Positions 16,405-60,565 of a DNA stretch of 64,000 bases are shown one piece after another (the first letter of the stretch is position 1; each line of letters opens with the position of its first letter). A program made the position numbers and the translations under genes. The notes under the pieces were generated by a model that made no database searches, was not told where the DNA came from, and was given only the letters and a program-made list of their open reading frames with translations. Origin of the DNA: Isoetes taiwanensis. Lineage: Eukaryota > Streptophyta > Lycopodiopsida > Isoetales > Isoetaceae. The stretch is taken from assembly GCA_021234155.1 (NCBI GenBank), contig JAJEKV010000059.1, positions 6,167,613-6,231,612 of the forward strand, written 5' to 3'.

Positions 16405-16887
16405 GAAATTCCGCTATTTGAACTGACACCCATTAGGATTGTAGCCAATTGTCACCACCGAAGAACCATAGAAAACAAATTTGTAAGTCAAAAACAAGAA
16501 GTTTAATAAATCTATTGGAGACAACTATATCATCGAATTGGCTCCATTGCAACAACAACAACAACATATGTTTTAAGTTAAATTGTAAGAATATTCCATG
16601 CTAGTTTAAATATCCTCGGTTGCAATGTGTTTGCACACCATTTTTTCCATGCTCAAACATGCAAATAATTGCCACCTGCCGTGAATTGCTATTTGTGGAG
16701 TTCCACCACTTGTCATAGACTTGTGGCTACTCAGATGAAGTTCTTGATAGCCAAGTAGTTGAACTTTTTGAATCTCCATCCACTTGTCACATGCATGTAG
16801 AAATGAGAAGTATTTAGGCATAAAAACGCTAAGATAATCTAGCAAAAGAGAAGATAGGGAAGGCTACAATTATCAAGACGAGCTAAA

Positions 16888-16958
16888 GGAGGCAACCAGG
16901 TTTGAACTGATGACCTATTGGACTGCAGCCAATTGCTCTACCACTGAGCTATACCTCC
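16888..16958 (-). tRNA. trnC-GCA: tRNA-Cys (anticodon GCA), structurally intact
   Basis: The minus-strand 71-mer begins GGAGGTATAGCTCAGTGGTA. The acceptor stem GGAGGTA/TGCCTCC pairs 7 of 7 (one G-U). The D-arm is GCTC-AGTGGTA-GAGC. The anticodon stem ATTGG/CCAAT pairs 5 of 5 around the loop CTGCAGT, giving anticodon GCA (Cys) with T33 in place. The variable region is AGGTC, and the T-arm ATCAG-TTCAAAC-CTGGT pairs 5 of 5 (one G-U). A box (TAGCTCAGTGGTAG) and B box (GTTCAAACC) are present; the B box departs from the usual GGTTCGA. No intron. Only TTT follows the 3' end; the first TTTT is about 41 nt downstream. It resembles eukaryotic nuclear tRNA-Cys rather than plastid trnC. Whether it is transcribed or charged cannot be told from sequence. 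Confidence 0.85.
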
Positions 16959-17347
16959 ATAAAAAATAAATTTACAAGAAAACAAGAAGTCGAATAAATC
17001 TTATTGAGACAATTATATCATTTGAATTGGCCCATTGCAACAACAACATATGTTTTAAGTTAAATAGTAAGAATATTCCATGCTAGTTTAAACATCACTT
17101 GTTTCATAATGTGTTTGCACACCATTTTTTCCATGCTCGAAATTTACGCAAATAATTGCCACCGTCCGAGAATTGCTGTTTGTGGAGTTCCAATTTAATT
17201 TGTCATAGGCTTGTGGCTACTGTTTGAAGTTCTTGATAATTTGTCACATGGGGGTAGAAATGAGAAGTATTTAGGCATAAACGCTTAAGATAATCTTAGT
17301 AAAAGAGAAGATAGGGAAAGGGATTGCACTATCAAGATCTAGCTAAA

Positions 17348-17424
17348 CGTAGGCAACCAGGTTTGAACTGATGACCTATTAGATTGTGGTAGCCAATTAC
17401 TCTACCAATCGAAGCTATACCTCC
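17348..17424 (-). pseudogene. tRNA-Cys-like, anticodon region disrupted
   Basis: T-arm and D-arm words are kept, but bases inserted in the anticodon arm and D-loop replace the GCA loop and lengthen the block to about 77 nt. It is the array neighbour of the intact copy. Confidence 0.7.
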
Positions 17425-17850
17425 ATAGAAAACAAATTTGAAAGTCAAAACAAGAAGTCAATAAATCTTATTGGAGATTAACCACATCATTTGAATTGGC
17501 TCCATTGCAAACAGTACCATGTTTTAAGTTAAATAGTAAGAATATTCCATGCTAGTTTAAACATCACTTGTTTCATAATGTGTTTGCACACCATTTTTCC
17601 ATGTCGTAAATTTACTTAGCCAATTGCCACTCTGGCCCCAGAATTGCTATTTGTGGAGTTCCAATTTAATTTGTCATAGGCTTGTGGCTATTGTTTGAAG
17701 TTCTTGATAGCCAAGTAGTTGAACTTTTTGAATCTCCATCCAATTTGTCACATGGGGGTAGAATTGAGAAGTATTTAGGCATAAACGCTTAAGATAATCT
17801 TAGTAAAAGAAAAGACAACGAAAGGGATTGCACTATCAAGACGAGCTAAA

Positions 17851-17925
17851 GGAGGGGCAACTGGAAGCTTGAACTGATGACCTATTGGATCAAGAGCCAC
17901 TGTTTCTACCATGAGCTATACCTCC
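17851..17925 (-). pseudogene. tRNA-Cys-like, decayed
   Basis: The acceptor end CTATACCTCC and the word TTGAACTGATGACCTATTGG are retained. The anticodon loop and the A-box half are altered (CAAGAGCCACTGTTTCTACC on the plus strand), so no proper Cys loop remains. Confidence 0.7.
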
Positions 17926-18337
17926 ATAGAAAACAAATTTGCAAGTCAAAACAAGAAGTCGAATAAATCTTATTGAGACAACTATATCATTTGAATTGGC
18001 CCATTGCAACAACAACATATGTTTTAAGTTAAATAGTAAGAATATTCCATGCTAGTTTAAACATCACTTGTTTCATAATGTGTTTGCACACCATTTTTTC
18101 CATGCTCGAATTTCTACGAAATAATTGCTACCTGGCCTCGAGAATTGTCAAGCTAGGAGTTCCACTCACTTTGTCATAGACTTGTGGCTATCAAGCTGAA
18201 GTTTTGATAGCAAGTAGTTGAACTTTTTGAATCTCCATCCAATTTATCACATGGGGGTAGAAATGAGAAGTATTTAGGCATAAACGCTAAAGATAATCTT
18301 AACAGCGCAAGGGATTGCACTATCAAGACGAGCTAAA

Positions 18338-18406
18338 GGAGGCAAAGCTCGAATCGATGACCTATTGGACTCGTACCAATTGTTTTACCATCGAAGCTAT
18401 ACCTCC
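18338..18406 (-). pseudogene. tRNA-Cys-like, anticodon loop changed
   Basis: The block is 69 nt. The stem ATTGG/CCAA is still readable, but the loop is TACGAGT, which loses T33 and the GCA anticodon. The T-arm is partly eroded (CTCGAATCGATGACC on the plus strand). Confidence 0.65.
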
Positions 18407-18828
18407 ATAAAAATAAATTTACAAGAAACAAAAAGCTCTATCAAATTCATTGAGACAATTATATCATTTGAATTAGCCCATTTGCAACAACAACATGTGT
18501 TTCTAAGTTAAATAGTAAGAATATTCCATGCTGGGCTTAAACATCACTTGTTTCATAATGCTTGCACACCATTTTTTCCATGTTCTAAATTTTACTAAAT
18601 AATTGCCACTGGCCCCAGAATTTATTTCAGGAGTTCAATTCTAATTTGTCATAGGCTTCTTGTATACCTGCTCTAAGTTCTGATAGTAAAGTAGTTGAAC
18701 TTTTTGAATCTCCATCCAATTAATTGTCACATGGGGGTAGAAATGAGAAGTATTTAGGCATAAACGCTTAATCTTAGTAAAAGAGAAGATAGGGAAGGGA
18801 TTGCACTCATCAAGACGAAAGCCAAAAG

Positions 18829-18900
18829 GGAGGCAAAACTGTGTTTGAAACTCCATTTCGACCTATTAGGATTGTGGTGCCACTTTGCTCTCTACCCACC
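18829..18900 (-). pseudogene. tRNA-Cys-like, heavily decayed
   Basis: Only GGAGGCAAAA, TTTGAAAC, CGACCTATTAGGATTG and GCTCTCTACC words remain in the right order, and no cloverleaf can be drawn. It is the last tRNA block before the LTR element. Confidence 0.6.
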
Positions 18901-19158
18901 ATAGAAACAAATTTGCAAGTCAAAACAAGAAGTCGAATAAATCTTATTGAGACAACTATATCATTTGAATTGGCCCATTGCAACAACAACATATGTTTTA
19001 AGTTAAATGGTAAGAATATTCCATGCTAGTTTAAACATCCCTTGTTTCATAATGTGTTTGCACACCATTTTTTCCATGCTCGAAATTTACGCAAATAATT
19101 GCCACCTGCCTCAGAATTGCTATTTTGTGGAGTTCAATTTAATTTGTCATGGGAGCCT

Positions 19159-20703
19159 TGTAGGACGTTTTTCCAAAGACAAGATAATGGCCCCGCAGAC
19201 GTAGACACTGCATCAAGTTCACACGCCACACCACTCCAACTCCATCACGACGCAGGCCGTGAGTAGCCCTAGGGCAACTTGCCAGGTATGTGTGCATTTC
19301 TTTATTAATGTGCACATAATATTTATCAAGGTGCACATATTTCCATGTGGGCACATTTAGGTGCACAGCTATCATGTAGGCACATTTGGCCACCTAGGCT
19401 ATTAAAGGCAGTGGGGCCTTATTTCCACTATCCCACATGCCTAAAGGGATCATTGGAACCCTAAGCCCAACCCTTGCCTATTTAAGTAGGAAACCCTAAC
19501 TTGCCCATTTTCGCTCCTATTTAGGGTTTTAGAGCTCATTGGCCGCCTCCAGAGTCAAAATCAGCCCCTGCACTGGGCTCAGAGAATACACCATTAGTTT
19601 CCCTTGATTCGGCAGCTTCAAGAGGATGGTCGAATCAGTCGAGGAGCAACTCATGGGATCGTATACGCATTTAATGGTCTAAACCGCCTACCATATTGTA
19701 TCATAGGTTTAGCTTCCATATTAAATCGGCTTTTAGCAGCCTATCTAGATTCCTAGATAAGCCAGACTTAACTAAAGAATGCACTCTATGATATAGATTA
19801 GATCTAGTTCTTTAGTTCTTCTCACAGCATGTATGGATGATGTATCTCGTGAACTCCTTGTATTGGGAAGGGGTGAGACTTGGCAGTAGATGCTCCCAGA
19901 TTACCTCTCAGCACACCATAGATTCTACTTCCTAAAAGAGCCACCTAGTTGTGGGTGAAGGGCTGACCACGAGAAGGAGGTTCGTGTTCGACTCTTGAAC
20001 ATCCTCCGGGTGTGTAAGGCTCACCGGGATCATTGTGACTAGGTCTAATGGCTTACCAACAGTGTGTGGGTAAGGCATGGGCTCGACACCCGAAGTGGTG
20101 TCTGCGACTTCAGCGGTTCAATAATAATGCGGCCCTCTAGTCACCTTGAGTCGAAGATGTAGATCTCGAGGGAGTGATCCCTACCTGCTCATCGAACCGA
20201 TGATGATCTCGTGAATAGCCCTTCGGGCTATGCATCCCGGGCGGCTACGTCCTCCGACACTTTTCTACTCTCGCAGCGTGCACGAGGGGCGATGAGTGGA
20301 CAACCCTATGCCACATGTTCTCTTATACAAATGCAAATCCATTGCCATGAATTGCCCCGCAATGAATCTCGAGACCTGCCGCCGGGCCATCCCTTTGAGT
20401 CCGAAAGCCTTGGGTAGGATTCCCATGTGATGTACCGGACCTTTGTCTATGCAGATATGTGGAGGACCATCCTTCGTGATGGTCATATGATGTTGATGTA
20501 TGTACCATCGACATGTATGTTTACGCTTTCCCAGCCAGGTAGGCCCCCGAGGGAGACGTGGTAGTGACTCTTCATTTTCCCATCGAACTCTTCAGTTGCG
20601 CTGGATAATGCGGGAGGGCCCTCTATTAGCATGGAGCTGCATGGGGATGAACTCGCTTGTATACCTGCGTGAGTGCACCGTGATTCAGGTAGGGGACGCC
20701 ACA
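19159..20703 (+). repeat. 5' LTR of the 16-kb element
   Basis: About 1545 bp, matching 33574-35166 along its whole length with many small differences. Matching words include CACATGCCTAAAGGGATCATT, GGTTCGTG, TAATGGCTTACCA, GAACTCTTCA and GAGTGCACCGT. Near the start, short GTGCACAT/GGGCACATTT words repeat. AAACCCTAA (telobox-like) lies at 19491. The strong LTR-to-LTR divergence points to an old insertion, if the base calls are trusted. Confidence 0.85.
19478..19486 (+). promoter_or_regulatory. LTR TATA-like box
   Basis: CTATTTAAG is followed by AAACCCTAA and a CCCATTTTCGCTCC tract, as expected around an LTR transcription start. The 3' LTR keeps CTATTTTAAG at 33899-33908. This supports plus-strand orientation of the element. 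Confidence 0.5.
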
Positions 20704-20804
20704 AGCAGGTCGTGAGCAATTTTGGAGACCAAGAGCAAAGTAATCGGGCCATGCTCCCGCAGAGTACTACTAACTTCGATAGGATCCTAACCGGGCAAAG
20801 GAAA

Positions 20805-21075
20805 AATTTTTTTCCTCATTTTGTAGTTTGTGCTGTTAGTACCGCTTAGGTGAATTGAACTTAATATTAGCACGTAAATTTTCCTCATTTTTGTAGTTTG
20901 TGCTAAGCTAGTAACAGCTAGGTGAATTGAACTAATAATAGCACATTTAGGTGAATTGGAACCAATATTAGCACGCTATGAATTGGAACTTAATAAGACT
21001 AAAAAGAATGAGCCAATTCAATATTAGAAGTACGCTTAAGGAATTGGAACTTAATAAGACTAAAAGAATGAGCCA
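20805..21075. repeat. Short tandem repeats behind the 5' LTR
   Basis: A unit of about 70 bp (TTTTCCTCATTTTTGTAGTTTG through GGTGAATTGAACTAATA-like to AGCAC) occurs at 20805-20873 and 20874-20944, followed by a 30-bp partial copy. A second pair built on GAATTGGAACTTAATAAGAC and AAAGAATGAGCCAA follows at 20975-21075. Confidence 0.75.
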
Positions 21076-24000
21076 AGCCTCCCTCGTGCAATGTGGTCTC
21101 ATACCGGCTGAAGAACTACACTTTAATTTTGAGGCGAGCAAGTCAGAGACATTGATCCGTGTTACGGAATGTTGTAAAATTTAAAAAGTAACTTGGTAAT
21201 TCGACCCTAGCCTTGGTAATCTTAGCCTTAGATCTAGCTAGATTAGTCTAGTTTTTCAATCTTTGAACCTCATCTTAAAGTGACTTCACGGAGTGTGAAT
21301 TGAACCTCCCACCCACTGCATCTGAACTCCCCCCAACCCCCCGTACAACCAGAGGGCTGGCATCATTTGTGTTTAAATTATAATTTTAATTAGATTTAAG
21401 CTTTAATAATGTTAGATAATATTAATGGCTGCTTCCTTGACCAGAACCAAGACCCTTAAGCTAGATAGAGACAACATCTTGATAGACACCAGACTGACGA
21501 CATGATGTGCTAAGACCAAACGCACTCAGCCGACTTCTCTAAGGCTTAAAATGCCTTGAGGCCGAAGAGAGGCCGGCAAACAAGAAGAGGAGAAGACAGA
21601 ACGAGAGCGAGGCCGCTCAAGAAGCACAGAGCAAGCCGGGTCCAACATTTGAAGACTCAACAAACCGCGACCGCTCATGCGGCGAAAACCTCATGAGGGG
21701 CGTAATTAGCTAGTTTAATTAAGGGAGATCCCCAAGAGATATAAGTTAAAATAATCAATAATTTTGTTAACAGCATGATAATTTTGAGTAGTTTATGTGT
21801 CAAATCTGCTTAACTAGGATGAGTTAGCAAGTAGTAGTTTTGTATTTTAGTAAAATAGGATATTCTCGTACTGTGGATAGTCTACGCTTTGTCAAGAAAC
21901 TAAAGCTTAGTTTCTTTGAACCAGGCTAACCCCGTGAGACTCCTTACATACCTGGTAGACCATGTCCAAACTAGACCAAAACAATTCAAATTGATTCAAG
22001 CAAGGGGTCCATTCCCTCTCACCAACTCGATGAGAGACTAGCATGATTTGACCCCTTAGATCACCCAAATTGGACACGCTTAACCCAATTTATAGTTACT
22101 GTTCACAGTCACCGGGTCAAAGAACTAAACTTTAGTTTTGAGCGTATACAACCTCAGGAGAGACCTCCAAACTTTGAACCTCCATAACTTGAGCTGCTGC
22201 AGCTCCAAATCGCCTTAAAATGACCGTGCTCAAACCCTTGAATTGTTTTTCCAAACCGTAGTTTGTTTGTAGATAGAAGCATTTTACTATGCTTCTCACA
22301 GTAGTATTGTTTCTACTAAAGCTCTATACCTTATTCCTAGATAGAAGTGCCCAAGAACACCCCTTTGTTATAGTCACTAGACCTCAAAGATAGCAACCCA
22401 AGTCCAATCGCTTTATCACCTCTCAGCCATGCCAAAAGGTACAAACCTTGACCTAATTCTCGTCCTTCTAATAGAGTTTGACTTATAGTCAGCCACATTA
22501 ACACTTCCTACGCTGTGGTACCTAGAAAGGAGCTAGAGTCTGGGAAGCTGCCCAAGCCGCTCCATGTGTAGAGATTGACTTCCCCTTAAACCAACGTCCT
22601 CCTGTTAGACCTTAGAGTATGCTCAAACATCATGCGGAGGTCTTGCAAAACAACTCTCATGTCACATACCACGCCCTAATATCCATAGACTTGTAGATTA
22701 TAGATATGCCTCCAAGAATGTCGGCTTGGTTACCTTTAGCTTAAGCTTATGTAGCCCGTAATGTTGTAGGAGAGCCCTTCGCTAAGTAGACCTTAGACTC
22801 TAGGAAATGAAGCGCAGCTAAGTACCTGGGCCGAGCCACGTAAGAGCTTGAGGCGAACTCCTGAAGACATCAAGGTCCCAAAATGGCGCGCATTGCATAA
22901 GGAGTAGTGAGACCCAAAGCAAGGCACTCCAATAGAGGGAAGCACAACGACAAAACACCTCAACCGACAACCAGGTAGAACAGACACCACCGCCTGTTAT
23001 CATCAATCTTCATCAAATGGAAAGAATAATTGGTAACCAACTTATCAAGAATTTTCAGGTGTCAACCCCGCCACTACCTATCAGGTCACATCGTGAAGAG
23101 ATTCGACGCTTTCACCAACTCGACCACCAGTTTCGTAAAATGGAAGCACGCAAGGCAAAGAAAATACAAAGTAGAACACGTTAGGACATCGATGCCACGT
23201 TAGCATCAATGCAGTTAGCCGCAGGGCATAACCTCCATCGAGGAGAGCAGTCATGGCCACACAGAGCATATAGAACCGGAGAGAAGACCACTCGACCTGC
23301 AGCCCGCCAGCTCAAGCGCAATGTCGTGCAACGCCAACAAAAGCGAGCCACTAAGCCAGGGCAAACCAATAAAGACCTAAGGCTGACCAAGATGAGCTTC
23401 CAGCCCCTTGCAACCAGGAGACCACCAGGGAGGAGACGCGATATCGTGAACATCTCCCACTGAAGGCCCATATCAGCACCAAAAGCAAGATCATGAGGAG
23501 AACACCGCCAAAACGTGACCTCAACCCGTGAACACCTAGAAAACCAAAGGGAAGGGACGGCCTTACCACGCCGCCTGGGCGAGTGCTGGTGACTCAATGG
23601 ATAGGGACCCAAAGGGACTGAGGAGTATCTACCTAGCCATTAGTACGTAGGGGCAAATCACGAAGGCGCATCAGAAGGAGCCATGGTAGGGGCAATGGAG
23701 AAGCACCACACTTCCAAAAGTATCGTGAGAGGCACCTCGTAATGAAGCAAAGCCTGGGCAACAGAGTCGACTTAAATTCAACCCGCGAGGAATGACATTG
23801 CCTCGCCAATGACCACACGACATCTCAGAGCTTCAAGATATTCAAGAATGCCCAACCGCAACAGCGCCAAAAGATCCTACTTAAGCCATCAAAGGTACCG
23901 ACATCGCAACCTTGCAACCACACACCGCATGTAGGGACGCTGAGCGTCAACGCATTCCTTACTTACCTAACATACACATTATGAAGCACTTTTCAAGCGG

Positions 24001-27000
24001 GATCACATCGACAAACACTCTTCAAGAACTTGGGGTGCGACGAAGCCCTGATCAGACATGAAGCTCAACAGCAGCATCTCAAGGAATCCTCGGAGTCAAC
24101 CGTAATCTAAGAAGATGCAAAGAAAACCGGGCGATCAAATGCGATAGAGGAGGGGAAAACCTAGAGGAGTATATAAACATTTAAGTAGATCTTCAGAAGT
24201 TGTTTTGAAAGTGGATGAATTAAAATCCCAATGTAAATGCGTATATGTCTATTGTATAGCCCCAAAAGCTCACAAATACAGGGAGAAACATGAGTTTAGA
24301 GTCATGTTTTACTGATTTAGCCAGCTTTTAGATCAGAAGCTCCTTCACTCGAATTACCAAAAGAGGAAGCATAGAGCCCAAGATCAAAATGGAAGAGCAA
24401 GTACGAGGAGAACGACTAGAGGCCAAGCAAACCACCGACTCCAAACACCTTAAGTGCCCGGTGAAGACACCACCACCCAATGTCGAATAAGAGACAATAC
24501 CTGGCCATGTCAAGATCATCACAAGGTAACCAAGACATCGCCGACGAACACTACATCTCAGGGCAGCAGCAACACTTCTTGATCTAACTTATGACACGAA
24601 GTGGCTCCAACAATGAAGGAGGAACTACCAATCAACGAGCCAACTAAGAAGACAACAACATCTCAATTTGACCATAATTCCACCTTGTGGTAATATAGGG
24701 ACGCCGCCACGACACGGATTAGATGGAGATGCACTAATGAAAAGGCACCGCTGACGGTGAGAGTTATGTCAACAACTAGGGTGATGGCTTCACGTACTCC
24801 TACCAAAGAATTAGAAGAGAAGAAGTCATCATATATCCCACATGCACGCCAAACTTCCGCTGTTTATTCGAATAATCTTAACTACAAGGATAATTAAAGC
24901 ACCTCAGTAGAAATCAAGCATAATAGCCGCTATTCACCACAAGAGCATATCCAAGGCAGGTACTTCTTCAACTCAAGGGTCAACTCAAGGCAGATATAAG
25001 GATCCATCACTGACAATATAGCCAAAGCAGAGGAGAGCCATGATGTTTTACTTACCGTGGAGACCGGCCACCACATAGAGTGCAAAACAAAGGTCGTAGT
25101 CAAGAAGTGCTAGCAACCGAATTTCTTCCACGAGCTCCCTAGAGTAAATCAGAGGATCAAACCCAGCACAATCAAAGCCACCTGGCTAGTTCCTCGCTAT
25201 AAAGAAGACGGCATAGCATCAGCAAGTTAACGCGACAAATATCCAAGCCATGTGATCAGGGATCAAAACAAGGAAGATTGGAAGCTCGATGGAGAAGCAA
25301 TTAGGTGAGACGAAGTCGGCGACTTGCACGCTGACTTGCATGCAACTTGGTGGAACCCGATGGACGAGATCTGGAAGAACAATCGCAGTAGAAGAGAACA
25401 ACCTGCAGGAGTATAGCCAAAGCACGTACCAAGAGACGCCTTCAAATAGCTTCAACTATCATGAAGGAGGAACAATTACCGAGAACGATCGTGAAGCGTA
25501 ATCGAAATGTCAAGATCAACTACAAGCACACCTTAGTTGAATGTGATGCAAAGCGTATTGTGCCATAGCCAACAAACATCTAAGTGAGGGCCCAAGCATA
25601 TCAACAAGCAATTCCTGTGAGTATGAGAGTCGACGACAAATAGAAGGATATAGATCATCAACACCATTGCACCGGAGGTACCGATGACATTGCCAAGGGA
25701 GTAGTGCAACTTGGAAGGGGAGGCACAAGGAGACCTAATAGCTCTAGTAGTAACGTAATTATGTAAGTTATATGTTTTGTATGTATAGTTCCCTTGTTAT
25801 TCCTTCCTTTCTATAGCTGCAATCGCATCAAAGAAAGAGATGTCATGCAAGCTGCGTGAAGCAATCAACACCGCCAACACTCTTTCGAAACATCGAGTAA
25901 TCTACAAGAGGATTCCTATTATATGAGACATCGATGGAGTCAAGACACGACGTAGAGTCGCCTTTAGTCGCCAAGACAAAAAAGTTCAAGATGAAAGATC
26001 TTGAACCAACTGGCTACCACCTTCTCGCTTTGAAAAGTTTCATACGGAAGATTTCAAGTGATCAATCACACCATCGCTAAATGCGCGGTGGCTTCTAAAT
26101 CCAACAAAAGTCAACCCTCACATCATCAAAGAAGAGCCACCGCCAAGGTGACCGGGCAAGGAGTTTATTTAAGAACGCTACCTTGCTACCAAGGCAATCT
26201 AATGGATGAGCTTCTAAAGAAGCCGGACTAAGGCCATGGGGCCTGTGAGGGTTAATGTGCATGGACTGCATGATCCATATTGGGATTAGAAGGCATTTCC
26301 ATATTCTCAAGCAAAGGATTGCCCCAACATTGAGCGCTAAGCCAAGGATTGGGAAGGAGATAGAGTAACTATAATTATACACGACAGGCAATGACATCCA
26401 ACTTATTGAAACCACTTCTGGTGAGATTGATCTCCCTCAAGCAGAAGGAATCATTACTAGGATAACATTAACCATGCATAAATCTAGTACCCAAAGAATA
26501 ATCCAACTCAAAGAAAAAAGAAGTAATCTAACAAGTCCTACCAATGGTTAATGATGACATCAATTGACAGGTGAACACTCCAAGAGCCAAATAACCAAGA
26601 AAGGGAATCTCTAGGAATATAAAAGAATAATACATGCAAGGTACATCTAAAATAAGAATTATAGTAATCAAATAGTCTTTTTGAGACAAAAAGGAATTGT
26701 CATGATGACAAACCTTGTGGTTTAGAATCGCTCTAACTGGAAGTAGGTAACCCATAGCTATATTACTGAAATAAATGATAAACATAATATGTGCATCCAT
26801 CTTAGATATGTATATGTTACAAGGCTAGTAAATTAACCGTGCTAAGCAAGAAGCCATATAACCTCTTAGGAGACAGATATGACGCCAGGTACAACGCCAT
26901 TGAAGGTGCGCTTTCTTTGAAGAAAGTGGGAGGGCTCAATCTTATGATTGAACGTACCGTAATCTAATTGACTCCACCGTGAATAGATTCACCCGCAATG

Positions 27001-27986
27001 GGTCGGCTTAATAGAGCGCAAGATAGATAGATAGATAGCTCGTGAGGTCTTCAACGGCGCAGACCCGACGCCAGTAGAGCTACTTCCACAACTAAATGAA
27101 GCGGGCAAAAACCATGGGAGCAACGCAAATCACCAAGTCACCCAAATTACCGGGACGGGCCAAGGGGTGGATACCGCCTAAACTTTAGGTAAGGTAAAAA
27201 TTATTTATTATAAGCTTTTAATGTAAGTCTTATAGATAAGTTAAATATGATCCTAATAATTGCATGGGAATTACCTGCACGCATATGTATCATGCGGAAA
27301 TAAGTTGCAACAAATTCACAATGTGAGGTAGCATGTTAATTAATCCTTCCTAAGGATGCAATTCCTCCAAGGATAGCCATATGCCCTTGGGGTCCTATAA
27401 ATATAGAAAATAGAAATAAAATATACTATGCATCTTAGGGATATACTGCTGTGACCCAAGGAAGAGAATAAGAAGCACATCTAACTTTTGTGTATCTATT
27501 GTTTAAATTTGGATTTTCCACTGAGAAATTCTTTTTGATTTTGCTTGGTCCATTTTCCTAAGGTTTTGGGATTTTCACCACCCAAAAAAATTCTGGCCCA
27601 AAAAAAATCGCGATTTTTTTTTTTTCAATTATTAGATTTCATTTTATCTCTTTGTCCGAATGGTTTAAGGCTGGCCGCATTTTGGGGTTTTCCGACATGG
27701 TGCGTGGTTTCCTAATTAGATGTAATTTGCATGAGATAATGCCAGGAGAAGAGAAAAATAGTAGTTTTGCTTCATTGCCTCTCGCAATTCACTTTGAACG
27801 CTGCATCTATCTGGACTATCCAAGTATTTTGTTCCGTATTATCATGCTCACATTATTTGCTTTTAATAGCTCTCACTCGGAGGTCATACAGTTGTTTTGT
27901 CATGGTCGACTTTCTTAAATCTCAGCTTTCAGCTTTTAAATGTATTGGATTATATTCTGATTTCTTATCCGGCCGATACATAAGGA

Positions 27987-28089
27987 TTCATTCATTCATT
28001 CATCTATCTATCTATTCATTCATTCATTCATTCATCTTATCTATCTATCTATTCATTCATCTATCTGGCCCATTCGTTCATCTACATTC

Positions 28090-28135
<46 letters not shown>

Positions 28136-28176
28136 TCATTCATCTATCTATCTATCTATCTATCTATCTATTCATT
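27987..28176. repeat. Tetranucleotide microsatellite (ATTC/ATCT)
   Basis: About 190 bp of interspersed ATTC and ATCT tetramers, uninterrupted for up to about 13 repeats near 28090-28130. The Ser/Ile/Tyr/Leu-rich plus-strand frame across it is a by-product. A short related (GATA)n tract lies at about 27022-27037. Confidence 0.95.
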
Positions 28177-42999: not shown

Positions 43000-43076
43000 G
43001 GAGGCAACCAGGTTGAATTTGTGCAGCCTATTAAGACTGCGACCAATTTAACCTACCCGCTGAGCTACTTACCTCC
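43000..43076 (-). pseudogene. tRNA-Cys-like, fuller copy with insertions
   Basis: It keeps GGAGGCAACCAGG at one end and GAGCTACTTACCTCC at the other. The anticodon arm (TTAAGACTGCGACCAA on the plus strand) still contains a GCA reading if the stem is shifted. Extra bases in the D-arm and acceptor make about 77 nt, so no proper fold forms. Confidence 0.55.
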
Positions 43077-49751: not shown

Positions 49752-50093
49752 TCATGAAATATAGGGAAGAGTCGGTAGATGCGCGAGATTTGGATCGATT
49801 TTAGATGCAAAAGCACAAATTTGCTTGGACACATTCCTAAACAATACCAGCTTCCTTTGTTGTGTGGTAGCTGACATAGAAATTCGTACGCCAGATGACA
49901 AACGGGATTCAATTAATTTCTCCCAGGTATTGCGGTAAATCCGGTGGATTGGCTCTTCTGTAGTCGGAATGTCTTGTTTAATATCTGTCTTCCTTAGGTT
50001 TGACTCTCGCGCATGAGATGTTTGTGGTGGCATTGATTTCGCGGTCGAAGGGTCTATCGGGAAGGAAGATGGAAAGAAGCGTTCTTTAGCCAT
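49752..50093 (-). pseudogene. Probable LINE ORF1 N-terminal frame
   Basis: A 113-codon frame with ATG start lies about 480 bp inside the LINE 5' end, where ORF1 (RNA-binding, gag-like) begins. The start, MAKERFFPSSFPIDPSTAKS, and the Ser/Thr/Lys/Arg-rich composition suit a disordered ORF1 N-terminus. A further frame at 49449-49712 may continue it after a frameshift and could correspond to the DUF4283-like region, but I cannot show the defining residues. A C-terminal zinc knuckle was not seen. Confidence 0.45.
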
Positions 50094-51176
50094 CGGTTTG
50101 CGAAGGTTGTAGAATTCACCAAATTATGAGATCGAGGTTATATATGCTCCTTGAAGCGGTATTTGTTGTTGTTCAGAATTTCTTTACGGTATTACGGCAT
50201 TTAGGGCGAAGGTATTTAGGAATGCTGGAGTGCGCTCGGGGAGATAAATCCGCCTTCGTCCAGTGGGACCATGATATGAGAAGGATGGAGAGATATAAAA
50301 GCGATGAAGAAGAATTAAGATGATTGGAAGTCAGAGAGAAAGGGGAAAGTTGTAACGCAAATTATCTGAAGATGAAAAGAACTTTCGAGGGGCGTGGTAG
50401 GTTAAAAATCTAGATCTCAAAGATCATAATGTAGATTACCTTACCGCCTCGATTTACTAGGTTGCAGGTGATCACGATGAGACCCTAGTTAGATTAAACG
50501 CCTGACCATAGGCGCTCAGCCTCGCCTACTCTCATAGATAAGATCAAATCCGAGTTCATTATCCCAAAAATTGAAGTTCTTGATAGCCAAGTAGTTGAAC
50601 TTTTGAATCTCCGTATGGGTATTTATCACATGGGGTAGAATTGAAAATGTACTGACATAAGCAGCAGAATAATCTTAGTAAAGAGCGGCCGAAAGGTGCA
50701 CTATATCAAGGCGAGCTTCAGGAAGCGCCGAAACGTTTGACCCAGCCTACTTCGGGCTGCGACTGTTCATACCTCACCGGCAGTAAACAGAAGGAATAAT
50801 CTATAGAATGGTATATCATTTAGATTGGCCCATTACAACAACAACATATGTTTTAAGTTAAATAGTAAAATATTCCATGCTAGTTTAAACATCACTTGTT
50901 TCATAATGTGTTTGCACACCATTTTTTCCATATACTCATTACATAGAAAATAGTACCCACAGTCAGAAATTGCACTATTTGAGTTCAATTTAAATTTAAT
51001 ACATAAGCTGTCTTCGGCTGAAGTTCTTGACTAGCCAAATGGTGGAACTTTTGCAAGATCTCAATCAATTTTGTCACATGGGGTAGAATTGAAATGTTGT
51101 GCAAGCATAAGCGGCAAAAGATAATCTTAGTAAAGAAAAGACATGAAAGGGTTGCTGCACTATCAGGCGAAATAAA

Positions 51177-51248
51177 GGAAGGCAACCAGGCCAGGCCGAT
51201 AACCTATTGGACTCTGACCCAATTGCTCTACTTTGAGCTATACCTCCA
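51177..51248 (-). pseudogene. tRNA-Cys-like, near-complete except anticodon and D loops
   Basis: The acceptor 5' strand GGAGGTA, the word AGAGCAATTGG and the 3' half CCTGGTTGCC are kept. The anticodon loop reads GTCAGAGT (8 bases, no GCA), the D-loop is shortened and the T-loop has lost TTCAAA. Non-functional by structure. Confidence 0.6.
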
Positions 51249-54200
51249 TAGAAAACAAATTTACCAGAATCAAAACAAAATTCCGAATTAAATCTTATTG
51301 AGACAATTATATCATTTGAATTAGCCCATTGCAACAACAACACATATGTTTTTAGATTAAATAGTAAATTCCATGCTAGTTTAAACATCACTTGTTTCAT
51401 AATGTGTTTGCACACCATTTTTCCATGCTTTCGAAATTCGCCTGCAAATAATTTACTGCAGTCAGAAATTGCTGTTGTGGAGTTTCAATTTAATTGTCAT
51501 AGGCTTGTAGCACTTTGTTGAAGTTCTTGATGATAACCAGTTGGACGGATGCTCATCCAATTTATCATGGGGTATGAAGAAGCAGCTTAAAGATAATCTT
51601 AGTAAGAAGATAGGGAAGGGATTGCACTATCAAGACCTGTGAGCTAAAGCACCAGGGTTTTGAGCCGGTAGTGACCTATGGATTCGCGACCAATTGCTCT
51701 AGCAATTTCTACCTCCATAAAAAATAAATTTACAGAAAACAAGAAATCGAATAAATCTTGTGAGACAATTATATATCATTTGAATTGGCCCATTACATAA
51801 CAACATATATTTAAGTTAAATAGTAAGAATATTACCATGTTAGTTTAAACGTAACTTGTTTTGCCATAATGTATTTTTACATTTTCATACTTTCCTTACA
51901 TGGAAATAAGTACCCGCGGTCAGAATTGCTATTTGAGTTCAATTTAATTTGTCATAGGTTTTGTAGCTCTTTGTTTGAAGTTCTGATAGCCAAATAGTTG
52001 AACTTTGAATCTCCGTAGTTTGTTGTCATGGGGGTAGAATAAATGAAGAAGTATTTGCAGGCATAAGCAAGATAATCTTAGTAAAAGAAAAATGACGAAA
52101 GGGATTGCACTATCAGGGCGAGGCTAAAGGAATAGCAGAACTGAGGCGATGATGACCTATTAAAATGCTGACCAATTGCTCTACCAGCAGACTATCTACA
52201 TTGAAAACAAATTTGCAAGTCAAAGCGAGAATCGAATGGGAAATCTTTATTGGGGACAATTATATCATTAGTTGTCCCATTGGAATATATATGTTTTAAG
52301 TTCAATAGTAAGAATATTCCATACTAGTCATAAACATCACTTGTTTCATAATGTTGCACACCATTTTTTCCATTCTACAAAATTTCACATGGAAATAATT
52401 GCAGTCTAGAATTGCTATTTGTAGATTCAATTTAATTTAATACATAGGCTGACTCTTGTTTGAAGTTCAACGATGGCAAATGGTTGAACTTTTTGAATCT
52501 CCATCAGGTTGTCACATGGGGTAGAATTAGAAGTCTTAGGCATAAGCGCTTAAAGATAATCTTAGTAAAAGCCGGTGAAAGTTGCACTATCAGGAGCTAA
52601 AGGCAGCGGACTTCTAATGAATTTCTGCGACCAATTTATCTACCTTGAGCTATACCTCCATAGAAACAAATTTGCAAGTCAAAACAAGAAGTCAAATAAA
52701 TCTTGTGAGACAATTATAATATCATTTGAATTGAAATAACTTAACAACATATGTTTACATAAGTTAAATAGTAGAATATTCCTTAGTTTAAACATCTTGT
52801 TTCATAATGTGTTTTTTGCCATTTTTCAATAACAAAATTCACATGGAAATAATTTACAGTCGAGAATTGCTATTTATTGGAGTTCAATTTAATTTGTCAT
52901 ATGGAAACTTGTAGCTGTTTGGAAGTTCTTGATAGCCAAGTAGTTGAACTTTGAATCTCCATCAATTTTGTCACGTAGAGGGTAGGGTGTAGAAGTGTTA
53001 GGCATAAGCGGCAAGATAATCTTAGTAAAGAAAGACAGCGAAAGGTTGCACTATCACGCAGGCAGGCAAAAGGCAACGGGCTTGAGGCCGATAACCTATT
53101 GGACTCTGGTAATTAATACCACTTGAGCCTCCATAGAAAACAATTTGCAAGTCAAAACAAGAGGTAGATAAATCTTATTGAGACAATTATATCATTTGGA
53201 ATTGGCCCATTGCAACAACAACATATTTAAGTTAAATAGTAAGAATATTTTTTCCATGCTAGTTTAAAACATCACTTGTTTCGCAATGTCGTTACACCAT
53301 TTTCCATGCTTTCGAAATTCATGAAAATAATTTACTGGGTAGAATTGCCTATTTGTGGAGTTTAATTTAATAATTGTCTTAGAAGCATGGCTTGTTTGGG
53401 ATTCTTGATAGCCATTAGTTGAACTTTGAATCTCCATCGAATTTGCTCATGAGGGTAGAATTGAAAATGCTTAAGATCAATCTTAAGTAAAAGAAGATGG
53501 GGAAGAGGATTACACTATCGGGCGAAACTAAAAGGCTGGTTTGAGCTGATGACCTACTGTGGATTCTGATAATTGCTCTACCATGGCCTATACCTCCATA
53601 AAAATAAATTTACAAAGAAAACAAAGTCGAATACGTCTTATTGGGGACAGGTATATCATTTGAATTGGCCCATTTACAGCAACAACATATGTTTTAAGTT
53701 AAGTAGTAAGAATATTCCATGTTAGTTTAAACATAAGCTTGTTTCATAAATGTGTTTTCATTTTTCCATGCTTTCGAAATTCATGATAATTGCAGTGTCG
53801 AGGAATTGCTATTTGTGGGTTCAATTTCAATTGTCTGGAGTTTTGTGGCTCATTTGGAAGTTCTTGATAGCCAAATAAGTTGAACTTTTTGAATCTCCAT
53901 CTGATTGTCACATAGAGGGGTAGAATAGAAATATTTAGGCATAATGACTTAAGATAAATCTTAGTAAAAGAAAAAGCTGTGAAAGGATTGCACTATCAGG
54001 AGCCAATAAAGGCAACCAGACTGAGTACGATATTATTAGTACTGACCAATTATCGCCACCATGAGCTGTACATCGTGGCTCGTTGCAAGTCCAAAGCGAA
54101 ATTGAATAAATCTTATTGAGACAATTATATCATTTGGATATCCCATTGGGTCTTAACATATGTTTTTAAGTTTCAATAGTAAGATATTCCATGCCAGTGT

Positions 54201-55916
54201 AAATATCCTTGTTTTCATAATGTGTTTCGCACTCCATTCTATAAAATTTATGCGATAATTATACGGTCTAAATTTTATACTGAATGAGTTCCAGCAGTTT
54301 AATTTGTATCATAAGGCTTTACATGAAAGCTCTGTTTGAGGGATTCTTGATAGCCAAATGGTTGAACTTTTGAGATATACATGAATTTGTCACATGGGGG
54401 TGAAATTGAAATGTGCGTACCGTAGCTTAAGATAATCTTAGTAAAGAAAAGAAAAGGTGAAAGGGATTGCACTATCAAGGCAGGCTAAAAGGAGGCAACA
54501 GACCCTATTAGATTTGCCAGTGAAATTGCTCTACCGAACTATATCAACAGAAAATGGGGTGCAAGTCATAAAATTAGAATAAATCCTTATTGGGACAATA
54601 ATTATATCATTTGAATTGGCCCCATTAACAACAACATATGTTTGAGTTAAATAGTAAGAATATTCCATGCTAGTTTAAATATGCTTGTTCTCAATATGTT
54701 TTTACACCATATGCAAATTTTCACGCCAAATAATTTACGGTCAGGGAATTGCTATTTGTGGGTTCAATTTAATTTGTCATAAAACGCTGGCTCTTTGTTT
54801 GAAGTTCTTGATAGAAGTAGTTGAACTTTTGAATCATCAATTTGTCACATGGGGTAGAATTAGCGAAGTATTTGACTCCGCGGCTTAAGATAATCCCAAG
54901 TAAAAAGAAACCTGGCGAAGAGGTTGCACTACTCAGGCAGAGCTAAAGGAGGCAAAAACAGGCCAGGCGATAACTTCTGGTGACCATTATCACCACTAGC
55001 CCTATACCTCCATAGAAAACAAATTTTGCAAAGTCAAACAAGAGATGAATAAATCTTGTTGAGACAATTATATCATTTGAATTGGCCCATTACAACAACA
55101 TATGTTTTAAGTTAAATAGTAGAATATTTTCCATGCTAGTTAAACATCTTGTTTACAGAGAATGTATTTTCATTTTCCATGCTGCAAGAATTATGATAAA
55201 ATAATTTACCACTGATCTAGAAATTGCACTATTTGTGGAGTTCAATTTGTCATAGGCTTGTGTACTTGTTTGAAGTTTCTTGATAATACAGAAATGGTTG
55301 AACTTTTGGAATCCTCCATCAATTTTGTCACATGGGGGTAGAATTGAAAGTAAACAGCTTAGACAATCTTAGTAAAAGAAGAGAGATAGGGAAGGTTACA
55401 TATCAGAGATGATATGTATGGGCCTCAAAGGCAACAGGTTTTGAAGCTGACTCTATTGGACACAAATAATTGCTCTACCTTTGAGCATACCTCATAAAAT
55501 AAATTTACAAGAAACAAAGAAATTCGAATAAAATCTTATTGAGACAATTATATCATTTGAATTGTATTCTCAACAACAACATATATGTTTTAAAGTTAAA
55601 TAGTAAGAATATTCCATGCTAGTTTTAGTATCCTTGTTTTACTATAATGTATTTTACCATTTTTTCCATGTTTCAAGAATTCATGAAATAATTGCCCACC
55701 GTCAAGAAATTCACGTTTGTGAGTTCCAATTTAATTTGTCATAGGCTTGTGAAAATACTGTTACAGGATCTTGATAGCCAAGTAGTTGAACTTTTTAGAT
55801 CTCCATCCAATTTATCATGGGGGTGGGGTGTGAAGTATTTAGACATAAGCCCAGATAATCTTGAAGTAAAGGAAAAAGGCAGTAGAAAGGGATTGCACTA
55901 TCAAGGCTGGCTAAAG

Positions 55917-55985
55917 GGAGGCAGCCAGGCTTGAACTCTAACCTATTGGGTATGACCAATTGCTCTACCACTAAGCTATACCTCC
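55917..55985 (-). pseudogene. tRNA-Cys-like, best-kept copy of segment 3
   Basis: 69 nt. Acceptor GGAGGTA/TGCCTCC pairs fully, D-arm GCTT-AGTGGTA-GAGC pairs with one G-U, and the anticodon stem ATTGG/CCAAT is perfect. The loop is only six bases (TCATAC) and lacks GCA. The T-arm keeps TTCAAGC, but the region before it is two bases short. It is probably dead, since both the loop size and the anticodon are wrong. Confidence 0.65.
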
Positions 55986-58900
55986 ACAAGAAAATAAATT
56001 TTGCAAGTCAAAGGCAAAAGTGAATAAATCTGTGGAATAATTATATCATTGGTTGGCCATTGCAACATGCTTATATGTTTAAGTTAAATAGTAAGTGTTC
56101 CATGCTAGTTTTAAACATCACTTGTTTCCATAATGTGTTTTCTATTTTCCACATGCCTTTCGAAATTTCACATAAATATTGCACGATTAGAGGAGGTACT
56201 GTTGGCAAGTTCCGTTAATTTTGTCCTTAGGCTTGTGACTCTTGTTTGGGAAGTTCTTGACGCTTCAGTAGTTGAACTTTTGGAATCTCATCCAATTTGT
56301 CACATGGGGTAGGGAATTGAGAGTATTTTAGGCATAAGCTTAAGATAATCTTAAGTAAAAAATGAGGGTTGCACTATCAAGGCCTTGAGCTAAAGGAGCC
56401 TTGAGACTTGGAAGCTGATAACCCTATTGGGCTATGACTAATTGCTCTACTGCCATTATACCTCCATAGAAAATGCCTTACCAAGTCAAACAAGAAGTCG
56501 AATGACTTATTGGAATAATTATATATCATTTGAATTGTACATTGCAACAACAACATATATTTTAAATTAAATAAATAAGAATATTTCCATGCTAGTTTTA
56601 AACATCACTTGTTTCTATAATGTTTTGCACACCATTTTCCATATGAAATTCTGCAAAATAATTGCCACGGTGCTGTTGTAGAGTTCCAATTTTAATTTGT
56701 CATAGGCTTGTACATTTGAGTTCTTGATAGCCAAATGGTTGAACTTTTTGAATCTCCATCAATTTACTCACATGGGGAATTTAGAATTGAAAAGTAAGCG
56801 GCTTAAGGAATAAATCTTAGTAAAGAAGATAGGAAGGATTGCACTATCAAGGCAGTACTAAAAGAAGGCAGCGGGTTTGAGCCTGTGGATTGACCAATTG
56901 CTCTACCACTTGAGCTACCTCCATATAAAATAAATTTACAGAAAACAAAGTGAATAAATCTTGAGAACAATTATATCATTTAGATTGTACATTGCAACAA
57001 CAACATATGTTTAAGTTAAATATAGTAAGAATATTCCATATTGGGTCATGTCGCTTGATATAATGCTGTTTTACACACCATTTTCTAATACCGAAAATTT
57101 TACGCCAAATAATTGCCCGCCGTTATGAAATTGCTATTTGTGGAGTTCAATTAATTTTATGTCGCAGGCTTGTGGCTCTGTTTGAAAGTTCTTGATAATA
57201 AATAGTTGAACTTTTGAGATGTCCATCCAATTTGTCATAGGGTAGAATGAAATATTTAGGCATAAGCGGCAAGATAATCTTAGTAAAAGACAGCGAAAGG
57301 GGTTGCACTATATCAAGGCAGGCTAAAGGAAACTGCCGGGCTTGAGCCGGTAAACCCTAACCGGGCTGCGTGAATTGCTCTACCAGCAGGCTATACCTCC
57401 GTGAAAACAAATTTACCAGTCAAGCGATAAGTGAATAAATCTTATTGAACAATTATATCATTGAATTGTCCATGGGTTTCTTAACTTTAACATATGTTTT
57501 AGGATTCAATGATAAGAATATTCTACACTGATTTTAAACATCACTTGTTTCATAATGTGTTTTTACCATTTTCCATTCTCGAAATTTCATAAATAATAGT
57601 ACCGATTAGAAATTGCTATTTGTAGGTTCAATTTATTTGTTGTCTTGAGCTTACTGTTTGAAGTTCTTTGATATTGAAGTAGTTGTTTTGAATCTCCATC
57701 CGAATTTGTCACATGGGGTAAGGTGAAAGTATTTTAAACATAAGCGCTTGAAATCTTAGTAAAAGAAAAAGAAGCGGTGAAAGGGATTGCACTATCAGGC
57801 AACGAGCTAAAGGAGGCAACCAGACAATGCAGCCAATTTACTTCTACCTTTGAGCTACTTACCTCCGCGGCTCAAAATTTGCAGAATCAAAACAAAATTG
57901 AATAAATCTTATTGAGACAATTATATCATTTTAGATTATTGCAACAACAACATATGTTTAAGTTAAATAGTAAGGAAATATTCCATACTGGTTAAAACAT
58001 CCTTGTTTCATAATGTGTTTTACCATTTTTTCCTTTTCAATTTTCACGCGCAAATAATTGCTGCAGTCAGAATTTATATTTGTAGGAGTTCAATTTAATT
58101 TGTCATAGGCTTGTATTCTTTTGTTTGAAGTTCTTGATATGCGTGGTTTAACTTTTGGATCTGTCCATCCAAGATTTTATCATGGGGTAGAATTGAAATA
58201 TTTAGGCATAAGCAGCTTAAGATAATCTTAGTAAAAGAAAAAAGATCAAGGCAAGGCTAAAGGAGGCAAACAAACTGACACGACTGACCTGTGAATTTCT
58301 TGTTAATTGCTCTACCAAAATGACTATACCTCATAAAATATTACAAAGAAAACAAAGTGAATAAATCTTATTGGAACAATTATATCATTTAGATTGGCCA
58401 TTTACAACCCAACAACTTATATGTTTTAAAGTTAAATAGTAAAAATATTTATGCTGTGAATTTAAATATCACTTGTTTCATAATGTATTTACTGCATAAT
58501 ACTTTCGAATTTACATAAAATAATTACCCGCAATTCGAAATTGCTATTTGTGGGAGTTCCAAATTAATTTTAATAGAGCATGGCTCTTTGTTTGAAGTTC
58601 AGTATAAGTAAGTTGAACTTTGAATCTCCATCAATTTGTCCATAGGTAGAAATAGAAGTATTTACCCAGAGCGCCATGCATAATCTTAGTAAAAGAAGAA
58701 GATAGAGGATTGCACTATCAGAGCTTGAGCTAAAAGGTAGCAGGTTTGGTGGTGACTGTAATTAATAATTATACTGCTGACCTATACTCCATAGGAAATG
58801 AAACTTGCAAAGTCAAAAACAAAATTGAATAAATCTTATTGAGACAACTATATCGTGAGATTGGCCCATTACAGCAACAACATATTTTTTAAATTATAAA

Positions 58901-60565
58901 TGGTAAGAATATTCCATACTAGTTTAAGCATCGCCATTTCATATTTGCACCATTTTCTATACTTTCAAAATTATACATAAATAATTGCCACACAGTTGAG
59001 AATTGCTATTTCATGAGTTCAATTTAATTTAATACATAGGCCCAGGTAGAAATGAAATATTTAGAGGCATAAGCACAGCTTAAGATAATCTTAGTAAAAG
59101 AGATAGGAGGAAGGATTGCACTATCAGGCAATTTAAAGGCAACCAGGTTTAGTTACCAAATGACCTAAACTAGACAAACTAGTATACCTTGAGCTACTGT
59201 CAAAAAATAAACTTACAAGAAAACAAGTGAATAAATCTGTGGGACAATTATATCATTTTGAATTGGCCCATTACCATAACAACATATGTTTCAAGTTAAA
59301 TAGTAAGAATATTCCCATGCTAGTTTAAACATCACTTTGTTTCATAATGTGTTTTCATTTTTCAATACCTTACAAATTCATAAAATAATTGCTGATGCAT
59401 GAGAATTGCTGTTGTGGGTTCCAGATTTAATTTGTCATAGGCTTGTGGCTACTGTTTTTAAGTTTCTTGTGTAGTTGAACTTTTTGAATCTCCATCCAAT
59501 TTGTCACATGAGGGGTGAATTGAAGTATTTAGGCACTCATGGCAGATAACCTTAGTAAAGAAAAGAGGATTACTATTAAGAGCCTATTGAGCTAAGGAGC
59601 CAGCAGGTTTGGGCGTGAGCCTATATTGTTTGCATGTTATCTCTGCCCAGGCTATACCTCCATGGTTGCAAGAAGTCAAAACAAAGTCGAATAAATCTTA
59701 TTGAGACAATTATCATTTTAAGATTGGCCCAGTGGAACAACTCATGCCATGTTTTAAGTTGTCGTAGAATATTCCTGGTTTAGAAACATCTTCCAGGCTT
59801 TCATAATGTGTTTTTCATTTTTTTCCATATATATACATTGCATAAAATAATTTACTGATCAGAAATTGCTATTTGTAGGTTCAATTTAATTTGTCATAGG
59901 CTTGTCTTGTTGGGGATTCTTGGTAGTAAGTAGTTAGTTTTGAATCTTTCATCCAATTTGTCACGCATGGTGAATTGAAGTATTTAGGCATAACTGTAAC
60001 ATAATCTTAGTAAAAGAAAAAAGGCGTGAAAGTTGCACTATCAAAGGCCTTTGCGACTAAAAGGAGGCAACGAACTGAACTAATGACACAGGTAGGTATA
60101 CGGTAATTGCTCTATAAGGCTATACCTCCATGAAAACAAATTTTGCAAGTCAAAGCAGAAATTGAATAAATCTTATTGAGACAATTATATCATTTAGTTG
60201 TCCATTTCTGGCAACAACATATTTTAAGTTAAATAGTAAGATATTCATGCCTAGTTAAAGCATCCTTGTTTCATAATGTGTTTCATTTTCCATGTAAATT
60301 TACATAAATAATTGCAGTCACGAGAATTGCTATTTGTGGGTTTAATTTAATTTGTCACTTAGGCTTGTAGCTCTTGTTTTAGGATTCTTGATAGTAAGTA
60401 GTTTGAATCTCCATCAATTTTATCACATAGGGGTAGGGTGAAGTATTTGTTATAAGCAGCTTAAGATAGTCTCATAGTAAAAGAAAAACTGACGAAAGTT
60501 ACTTATCAGGCAAAACTAGAGCAACAGACCTACAGCCAATTTTGCTGCCACGTTACAGTCCACGA

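Follow-up and report, generated by a model that had tools for sequence, protein, structure and literature searches.

Tandem tRNA-Cys(GCA) gene arrays at three loci of Isoetes taiwanensis: a probable, putatively silent cluster with likely decay and assembly error in the window

A 64,000-nucleotide stretch of the Isoetes taiwanensis genome (the window) raised the question of whether a long repeat array is a decaying tRNA gene cluster or satellite DNA into which a Pol III gene was taken up. The original prediction described about 46 head-to-tail units, each with a tRNA-Cys block at a constant place and on a constant strand. A 495-bp unit HMM was built from 11 units of C192 (C192 and C952 are labels of two other contigs of the same assembly) and searched against the window with nhmmer. 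It detected 47 pieces between 16416 and 60520, distributed over three blocks (6 in A, 19 in B and 22 in C). More than 250 model positions were covered by 45 of these pieces, and the weakest E-value within the blocks was 6.4e-8. All 47 pieces lie on the minus strand, as does the tRNA, which occupies model positions 280 to 350. The blocks together amount to ~21.3 kb, in agreement with the ~21 kb predicted once large insertions are removed, and the long shared spacer was likewise borne out. Units are ~490 bp long overall. Those of block A start ~460-500 bp apart; for block C the spacing is mostly 440-500 bp, and block B is more irregular. Block A is the least diverged, and TRF reported a tandem period of 500 within it at 17238-19150. 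Tandem units were seen again on C192 and C952. The array is real, and its observation was confirmed. Positions of the features within the window are as follows.

3502 to 3721, minus strand: unit relic, model positions 129-353 (nhmmer, E 2.9e-29)
3945 to 4125, plus strand: second unit relic, model positions 273-490 (nhmmer, E 1e-26)
16416 to 19161, minus strand: block A, 6 tandem units (nhmmer, E 1e-72 to 2e-166)
16887 to 16958, minus strand: tRNA-Cys(GCA) gene (ARAGORN; Rfam RF00005, 65.8 bits)
19162 to 35189, no strand assigned: 16-kb insertion between blocks A and B, LTR-retrotransposon-like (self-comparison, pair alignment)
35190 to 43796, minus strand: block B, 19 tandem unit pieces, the most diverged block (nhmmer)
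43797 to 50581, no strand assigned: 6.8-kb insertion between blocks B and C (gap between unit matches)
50582 to 60520, minus strand: block C, 22 tandem unit pieces (nhmmer)
55916 to 55985, minus strand: tRNA-like block, anticodon arm altered by eye (Rfam RF00005, 36.7 bits, above the Rfam cut-off; not called by ARAGORN)

The two relics are opposed to each other in orientation, and both lie outside 16405-60565. The gene at 16887-16958 was the sole tRNA called by ARAGORN in the window; 86-bp stretches identical to its region occur twice on C952 and once on C192. An Rfam search at a permissive threshold found no extra tRNA in 16000-61000. The majority sequence of each block was also analyzed with ARAGORN: tRNA-Cys(GCA) was called for block B, while block A gave tRNA-Trp(CCA) and not tRNA-Cys, and the tRNA of block C, with changes at CAG/CTG sites, was not called. 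Every clean unit has the look of an entire Pol III gene: ARAGORN and Rfam recognize its cloverleaf, A and B boxes can be picked out by eye, and a TTTT motif follows 43 nt beyond the tRNA end. When the tRNA called by ARAGORN was folded by MFE, the best structure was not a cloverleaf (z −1.80, with 9 of 200 shuffles folding at least as well); the basis of the tRNA calls is ARAGORN and Rfam, not MFE folding.

The 16-kb insertion is bounded by direct repeats of ~1.5 kb (about 19248-20703 and 33666-35166). Alignment of these end repeats produced 234 gap columns against 147 mismatches, indicative of unclean sequence, and the insertion is therefore not datable from them. No Pfam match (E 0.01) was obtained for 6 open stretches tested of the 14 listed in this insertion or for 4 tested of the 14 listed in the 6.8-kb insertion. 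Positions 21-4225 of C192 resemble the 16-kb insertion at 74-78%.

A spacer search of the 1.66-Gb genome was performed in which scoring was limited to the 40 best of 71 candidates and 42 matches were listed, so that all counts are lower bounds. Only two places besides the window appeared among the matches listed, on C192 and C952, and all 42 matches fall within these three tandem arrays; the three loci together hold at least 88 unit pieces, of which 70 cover more than 250 model positions. The relics at 3502-4125 were missed by this search, and other diverged copies may have been missed too. On C192, 8 of the 10 ARAGORN tRNAs were tRNA-Cys(GCA), 6 of these 8 scoring >60 bits with Rfam. All five tRNAs of C952 were tRNA-Cys(GCA), with Rfam scores of 60-65.8 bits and starts 477, 491, 917 and 492 bp apart. 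The possibility that the loci are alternative haplotypes was rejected, as their flanks have only repeats in common. A genome search with one flank per locus led to no further array. At unit positions 271/276, the linked combinations GC and AT both occur in every block of all three loci, alongside mixed types.

The closest known system is the tRNA-Cys-GCA cluster on chromosome 5 of Arabidopsis thaliana, with 4-6 units of ~420 bp that are 84-94% alike (PMC10701932), and the notion that a Cys-based tandem cluster is a novelty does not, therefore, hold. Both have the same isoacceptor, arranged head to tail with one tRNA per unit (~490 bp here). The Isoetes array is of the same kind but far longer, with 47 pieces plus two more arrays, in a lycophyte host. 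Likeness of the spacers to the query was 97-98% for full-length C952 matches, 92-99% for C192 (14.6-21.0 kb) and 80-94% for most window matches. The Arabidopsis cluster has transposon annotations over it and degenerate copies beside it and is reported to be largely silenced; a Helitron-borne repeat was proposed there, with no reliable Helitron prediction over the tRNA genes (PMC10701932). PMC11700998 and PMC12308677 describe other tandem nuclear tRNA genes, namely, the Ser-Tyr-Tyr and Pro clusters of Arabidopsis, the former CG and CHG methylated, and a tRNA-Ile cluster of maize, which differ from the Isoetes array in isoacceptor and unit design. The window, C192 and C952 all share with plant tandem clusters the head-to-tail arrangement of one same-isoacceptor tRNA per unit, and the unit starts, ~440-500 bp apart, fall within the <1-kb spacing of tRNA genes used in PMC10701932 and PMC12652284. 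The survey of flowering plants in PMC11700998 defines clusters as 3 or more tDNAs per kb, a rule that would miss units of ~490 bp because their density is about 2 per kb. In the main text of PMC12652284, a survey of 50 plant species, neither Selaginella nor lycophyte nor Isoetes occurs as a word, and the word tRNA is likewise absent from the main text of the I. taiwanensis genome paper (PMC8566536). None of the papers listed in the literature searches dealt with tRNA arrays of Isoetes or of any other lycophyte, which, the listings being short, proves little. That a single lycophyte locus holds some 46 units of a Cys cluster suggests that tRNA genes can repeatedly be amplified in tandem and then silenced.

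We consider it likely that the array is a tandem nuclear tRNA-Cys(GCA) cluster, present at several loci and presumably silent and methylated, whose disorder in the window is partly real decay and partly assembly error. An amplified tRNA gene cluster is favored over a SINE or a satellite with a picked-up tRNA because the spacer matches listed occur only in tandem tRNA-Cys arrays. A tRNA-Cys gene with ~420 bp of flanks would have multiplied into a head-to-tail row, with unequal crossing-over as the likeliest route, and at least three loci would have been seeded by pieces of several units. Adjacent units were no more alike than distant ones in six sets (permutation p 0.21-1.0), and unequal crossing-over is, therefore, unsupported by neighbor similarity. 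Like the tRNA gene clusters of Arabidopsis, the arrays may lie in chromatin that is CG/CHG methylated and largely silent; the indirect signs are the clustering of differences at CG/CHG and the CpG loss of the array tRNA.

The units had also been described as mostly dead. This cannot be taken at face value, as the differences concentrate around CG/CHG sites, a pattern that the 5S rDNA arrays of this assembly show too. The assembly is probably the one described in PMC8566536, for which ONT R9.4.1, racon and pilon were used. Methylation differences likely lower basecalling accuracy according to PMC9749173, in whose main text the word CHG is absent. The window differences cluster at, and up to 2 nt from, CG/CHG sites and include many indels and transversions. 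Substitution levels in block C were.318/.336 at CG/CHG sites,.277 within 2 nt and.102 at a distance of at least 10 nt; in both blocks B and C, changes were almost as frequent at positions up to 2 nt away as at the sites. The ratio of indel events to substitutions and the C>T share were.39 and.34 in block C,.37 and.29 in block B, and.41 and.31 in the 5S arrays (46 copies, 6 of them, including the reference, unchanged), as compared to.27 and.46 in the clean part of C192 and.14 and.49 in C952. The words CAG, CTG and CCG were the most changed of those tested in both the array and 5S, TCG being absent from 5S. Exact error strings common to the array and 5S were also considered but hold only in part, the replacements being more varied in the array. 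The 5S control leaves part of the array disorder unexplained because of these more varied replacements and because words without CG/CHG were changed more often, in 44-65% of array cells (six words) versus 0-30% in 5S (the four words occurring there).

These words without CG/CHG would also fit a cluster that is ancient, dead and as decayed as it looks, with assembly error playing a minor part, a reading that we regard as unlikely yet deserving serious consideration. Divergence persists far from CG/CHG: at a distance of at least 6 nt, the share of spacer cells that differ is.151 in B and.108 in C, versus.045 of the columns between the insertion end repeats, and 118 of 196 changes at the CG/CHG sites of block C are C>T or G>A, as deamination would give. 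Deamination does not, however, give the common transversions, indels and changes up to 2 nt from sites; moreover, the indel and C>T shares are similar in the 5S arrays, and of the 495 unit positions, the majority sequence departs from the clean unit at only 14 in block B and 16 in block C. Under the reading of partial decay and partial assembly error, the window array would be old and broken by the two insertions, its units probably truly diverged, and a further share of its disorder is probably nanopore consensus error at methylated cytosines, to judge from the placement of the differences. ARAGORN called 1 tRNA-Cys in the window, 5 on C952 and 8 on C192, the window sequence being probably error-prone. 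The tRNA was better conserved than the spacer in 1/6 (A), 2/18 (B), 1/21 (C), 7/19 (C192) and 4/4 (C952) units. Targeted decay of the tRNA was dropped as a candidate: the pattern mostly reflected the higher CG/CHG share of the tRNA, and window rates were similar at matched distance. These observations carry the warning that CG/CHG errors in nanopore assemblies of methylated repeats may make living tRNA or 5S genes resemble pseudogenes.

Tandem arrays of long units around tRNA genes are the main source of tRNA genes in Entamoeba, whereas Isoetes has at least seven dispersed called tRNA-Cys genes (7 of 10 dispersed loci were called tRNA-Cys(GCA) by ARAGORN), from which the tRNA-Cys supply of the cell would probably come. 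The array tRNA is identical to that of a dispersed gene, L009, at 65 of 71 positions, in keeping with a nuclear-type tRNA, and tRNAs of the L009 kind are present on several large contigs. All six differences (positions 28, 40, 49, 51, 58 and 61 of the 71) are C>T or G>A changes. Together they remove every one of the 4 CpGs, and two stem pairs are changed on both sides with pairing kept. The loss of CpGs may be read as a sign of past methylation; the founder tRNA would already have been without the four CpGs by C>T and was probably long cytosine methylated in the germ line.

A cluster kept in reserve, which some tissues would activate to make a distinct tRNA-Cys isodecoder, would account for the preserved pairing of the called tRNA genes in C952 and clean C192 units, but we rate this as decidedly improbable. 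At least 3 nt from CG/CHG, these units had 6/830 changes in the tRNA versus 115/7236 in the spacer, with a borderline Fisher p of 0.0498 from units that are not independent, and, with site class matched, conservation of the window tRNA did not exceed that of the spacer. A precedent is the Ser/Tyr cluster of Arabidopsis, which is reactivated in root cap cells (PMC12308677). It is, with similar doubt, conceivable that a germ line-methylated, CpG-free tRNA-Cys lineage kept its cloverleaf, spread to three lycophyte loci and may be a conditionally expressed isodecoder; if so, heterochromatic reserve tRNA clusters would recur across vascular plants, not just flowering plants.

That a satellite secondarily captured a Pol III tRNA gene is very unlikely, although the long conserved spacer and the tandem arrays at three loci would suit it. 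The tRNA occupies the same model position in all three window blocks as well as on C192 and C952, and no tRNA-free spacer array was found among the genome matches listed; of the two options originally offered, the cluster in decay is, therefore, the better fit and the capture by a satellite the worse. As far as seen, the array is not a high-copy satellite: the copy number at the three loci, a lower bound, is low for one. A tRNA-derived SINE or other mobile element lying in tandem by chance is scarcely credible: dispersed fragments L008, L011 and L017 are similar to the array tRNA, with model matches that continue for 33-43 positions beyond its end, and L008 and L017 have their left flank in common, but none is a full unit, the dispersed copies with a non-tRNA body that mark a SINE were not seen among the listed spacer matches, all of them in tandem arrays, and the flanks of L008 are two different repeats found elsewhere without the tRNA.

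A unit profile of 495 positions was built from 11 units of C192, a contig of the same assembly bearing a second array, and used to search the window. This search detected 47 unit pieces in three blocks (A, B and C), of which 45 spanned over 250 model positions. All 47 lay on the minus strand with the tRNA at model positions 280-350, in agreement with the original prediction of about 46 units holding a tRNA-Cys block at the same place and strand. At a permissive threshold, Rfam found no extra tRNA between 16000 and 61000.

Features of the window
3502-3721 and 3945-4125, opposite orientation: two unit relics (unit profile), ~12 kb left of the array
16416-19161, minus strand: block A, 6 unit pieces (unit profile)
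16887-16958, minus strand: tRNA-Cys(GCA), sole ARAGORN call in the window
19162-35189, no strand: insertion 1, between A and B, with ~1.5-kb direct repeats at both ends
35190-43796, minus strand: block B, 19 unit pieces (unit profile)
43797-50581, no strand: insertion 2, splitting the array between B and C
50582-60520, minus strand: block C, 22 unit pieces (unit profile)
55916-55985, minus strand: weak tRNA, added by Rfam

As the relics lie left of the array, the locus probably extended further in the past than first reported; their opposite facing might mark an old inversion.

The genome (1,658,258,908 bases, 1110 contigs) was searched with spacer and tRNA queries. All 42 listed spacer matches fell within three arrays, a result at odds with the spacer being a dispersed SINE family; this search scored the top 40 of 71 initial candidates and missed the relics at 3502-4125, so that its count is a lower bound.

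Further arrays (spacer query and unit profile)
C192 (contig of 180 kb): 10.0-21.9 kb
C952 (contig of 22.2 Mb): near 21.52 Mb

Together the three loci held 88 unit pieces, 70 of them longer than 250 positions. Of the 10 tRNAs called by ARAGORN in C192, 8 were Cys(GCA) and the rest Cys(ACA) and Phe(AAA); the five called in C952 were all Cys(GCA). We take the arrays to be separate loci; their flanks have repeats alone in common, including the insertion-1 family (also present left of the C192 array), and genome searches with one flank per locus reached no additional array. The 41 matches to the tRNA query fell in the three arrays and at 10 loci elsewhere. At seven of the latter, ARAGORN called tRNA-Cys(GCA) (Rfam, 57.7-67.8 bits), while the remaining three (L008, L011 and L017) were fragments matching 33-43 model positions beyond the tRNA end. 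Near position 1050 of their contigs, L008 (C1084) and L017 (C1060) carry an array tRNA-Cys fragment, extended by array 3' flank over 33-38 model positions, inside a composite repeat; they share a left flank, which further loci carry without the tRNA.

Differences among the window units peaked at CG and CHG sites and also within 2 nt of them, the latter unlike deamination. Rates were.276 (CG),.299 (CHG),.279 (within 2 nt) and.136 (at ≥10 nt) in block B and.318,.336,.277 and.102, respectively, in block C. As a control, 46 copies of 5S rDNA (some partial) were examined in two stretches of the same assembly.

5S rDNA arrays
L021: C13:282501-292500
L022: C907:40703001-40710000

Only 6 of the 46 copies, reference included, were unchanged; the other 40 were partial or differed from the reference, chiefly at or beside CG/CHG (for example, CATCAGAAC appears as CATCGAAC). 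Substitution rates fell from.117 at CG/CHG to.089 (1-2 nt away),.055 (3-5 nt) and.005 (≥6 nt, from five positions only). These 5S differences are likely nanopore consensus error, and error of this type would mimic pseudogenes. Excerpts of the assembly report describe 1658.30 Mb in 204 scaffolds and 909 contigs, produced with ONT R9.4.1, miniasm, racon and pilon (PMC8566536), and excerpts of another study state that differences in methylation will probably reduce nanopore basecalling accuracy (PMC9749173). Indel events per substitution and C>T share were.41 and.31 for 5S,.31 and.30 for A,.37 and.29 for B, and.39 and.34 for C; the values were.27 and.46 for the clean part of C192 and.14 and.49 for C952. 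The end repeats of insertion 1, aligned as a pair, had 234 gap columns versus 147 mismatches. We interpret the CG/CHG-centred disorder, together with these gap-rich repeats, as consensus error at methylated cytosines.

Divergence was also seen away from such sites. In the array, six words without CG/CHG were altered in 44-65% of cells, as against 0-30% in 5S for the four that occur there. At spacer sites ≥6 nt from CG/CHG,.151 (B) and.108 (C) differed, above the.045 of columns for the insertion-1 end-repeat pair, indicating that B and C have probably truly diverged, provided that error in the array does not exceed that in the insertion. The description of the array as mostly dead needs qualifying: the B and C divergence is probably real, the CG/CHG-centred disorder, as in 5S, is taken as consensus error, and the damage to the tRNA may be real only in part. 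With distance to CG/CHG matched, conservation of the tRNA in B and C did not exceed that of the spacer, nor did it clearly fall below it. At ≥6 nt the tRNA was somewhat worse conserved in A (12/104 versus 83/1741), and at ≥3 nt somewhat less changed in C952 and clean C192 (6/830 versus 115/7236; p 0.0498, the units not being independent).

Two linked types, GC and AT, occurred at unit positions 271 and 276, both ≥16 nt from any CG/CHG site. Each block at each of the three loci contained both types, together with some mixed ones. This distribution indicates that the loci were probably seeded by multi-unit pieces rather than one founder unit, or that exchange went on. For each of the 44 window units compared at sites ≥4 nt from CG/CHG (A, 6; B, 17; C, 21), the nearest unit belonged to C192 or C952 and not to the window. 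Majority sequences differed from the clean unit at 14 (B) and 16 (C) of the 495 positions. tRNA detection on the consensus succeeded as Cys(GCA) for C952, both C192 parts and B, but ARAGORN returned Trp(CCA) for A and no call for C. Two adjacent units at C192:19032-20028 share a 5-nt T-arm insertion in the tRNA, a sign of local duplication.

The clean array tRNA differed from the dispersed gene L009 at 6 of 71 positions, every change being C>T or G>A, and all four CpGs of L009 were lost. This pattern would be the expected trace of long germ-line methylation of the founder. Comparison of the two sequences showed two stem pairs altered on both sides yet still paired and one pair changed to a wobble, with pair positions presumed from the standard cloverleaf. 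Internal promoter boxes were identified by eye in the clean unit, and a TTTT at model position 393, 43 nt beyond the tRNA end, is a putative Pol III terminator.

A Cys-based array had been considered unusual, but such a cluster is already known on Arabidopsis chromosome 5, where four to six units of ~420 bp, for the most part silenced, are accompanied by a pseudogene and by transposon annotations (PMC10701932). It is the nearest known system, and the window array is similarly built. Excerpted sources describe further plant clusters of Pro, Ser-Tyr and Ile (PMC11700998) and an Arabidopsis SYY cluster that carries CG and CHG methylation and becomes active again in root cap cells (PMC12308677); the window array resembles these clusters in build. 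Tandem plant tRNA clusters are an already known kind, among which the Isoetes array stands out by its length, its presence at three loci and its lycophyte host.

Neighbouring sequence contained other repeats. A sequence related to insertion 1 of the window (16 kb) occupies C192:21-4225, ~6 kb left of that array. Adjoining the left end of the window array, 14600-16400 is a repeat with at least 39 further loci at 76-81% identity, most spanning nearly the whole query, and 11166-13180 is a degenerate minisatellite with a ~19-bp basic unit and a weak relative near C192:7601-7728.
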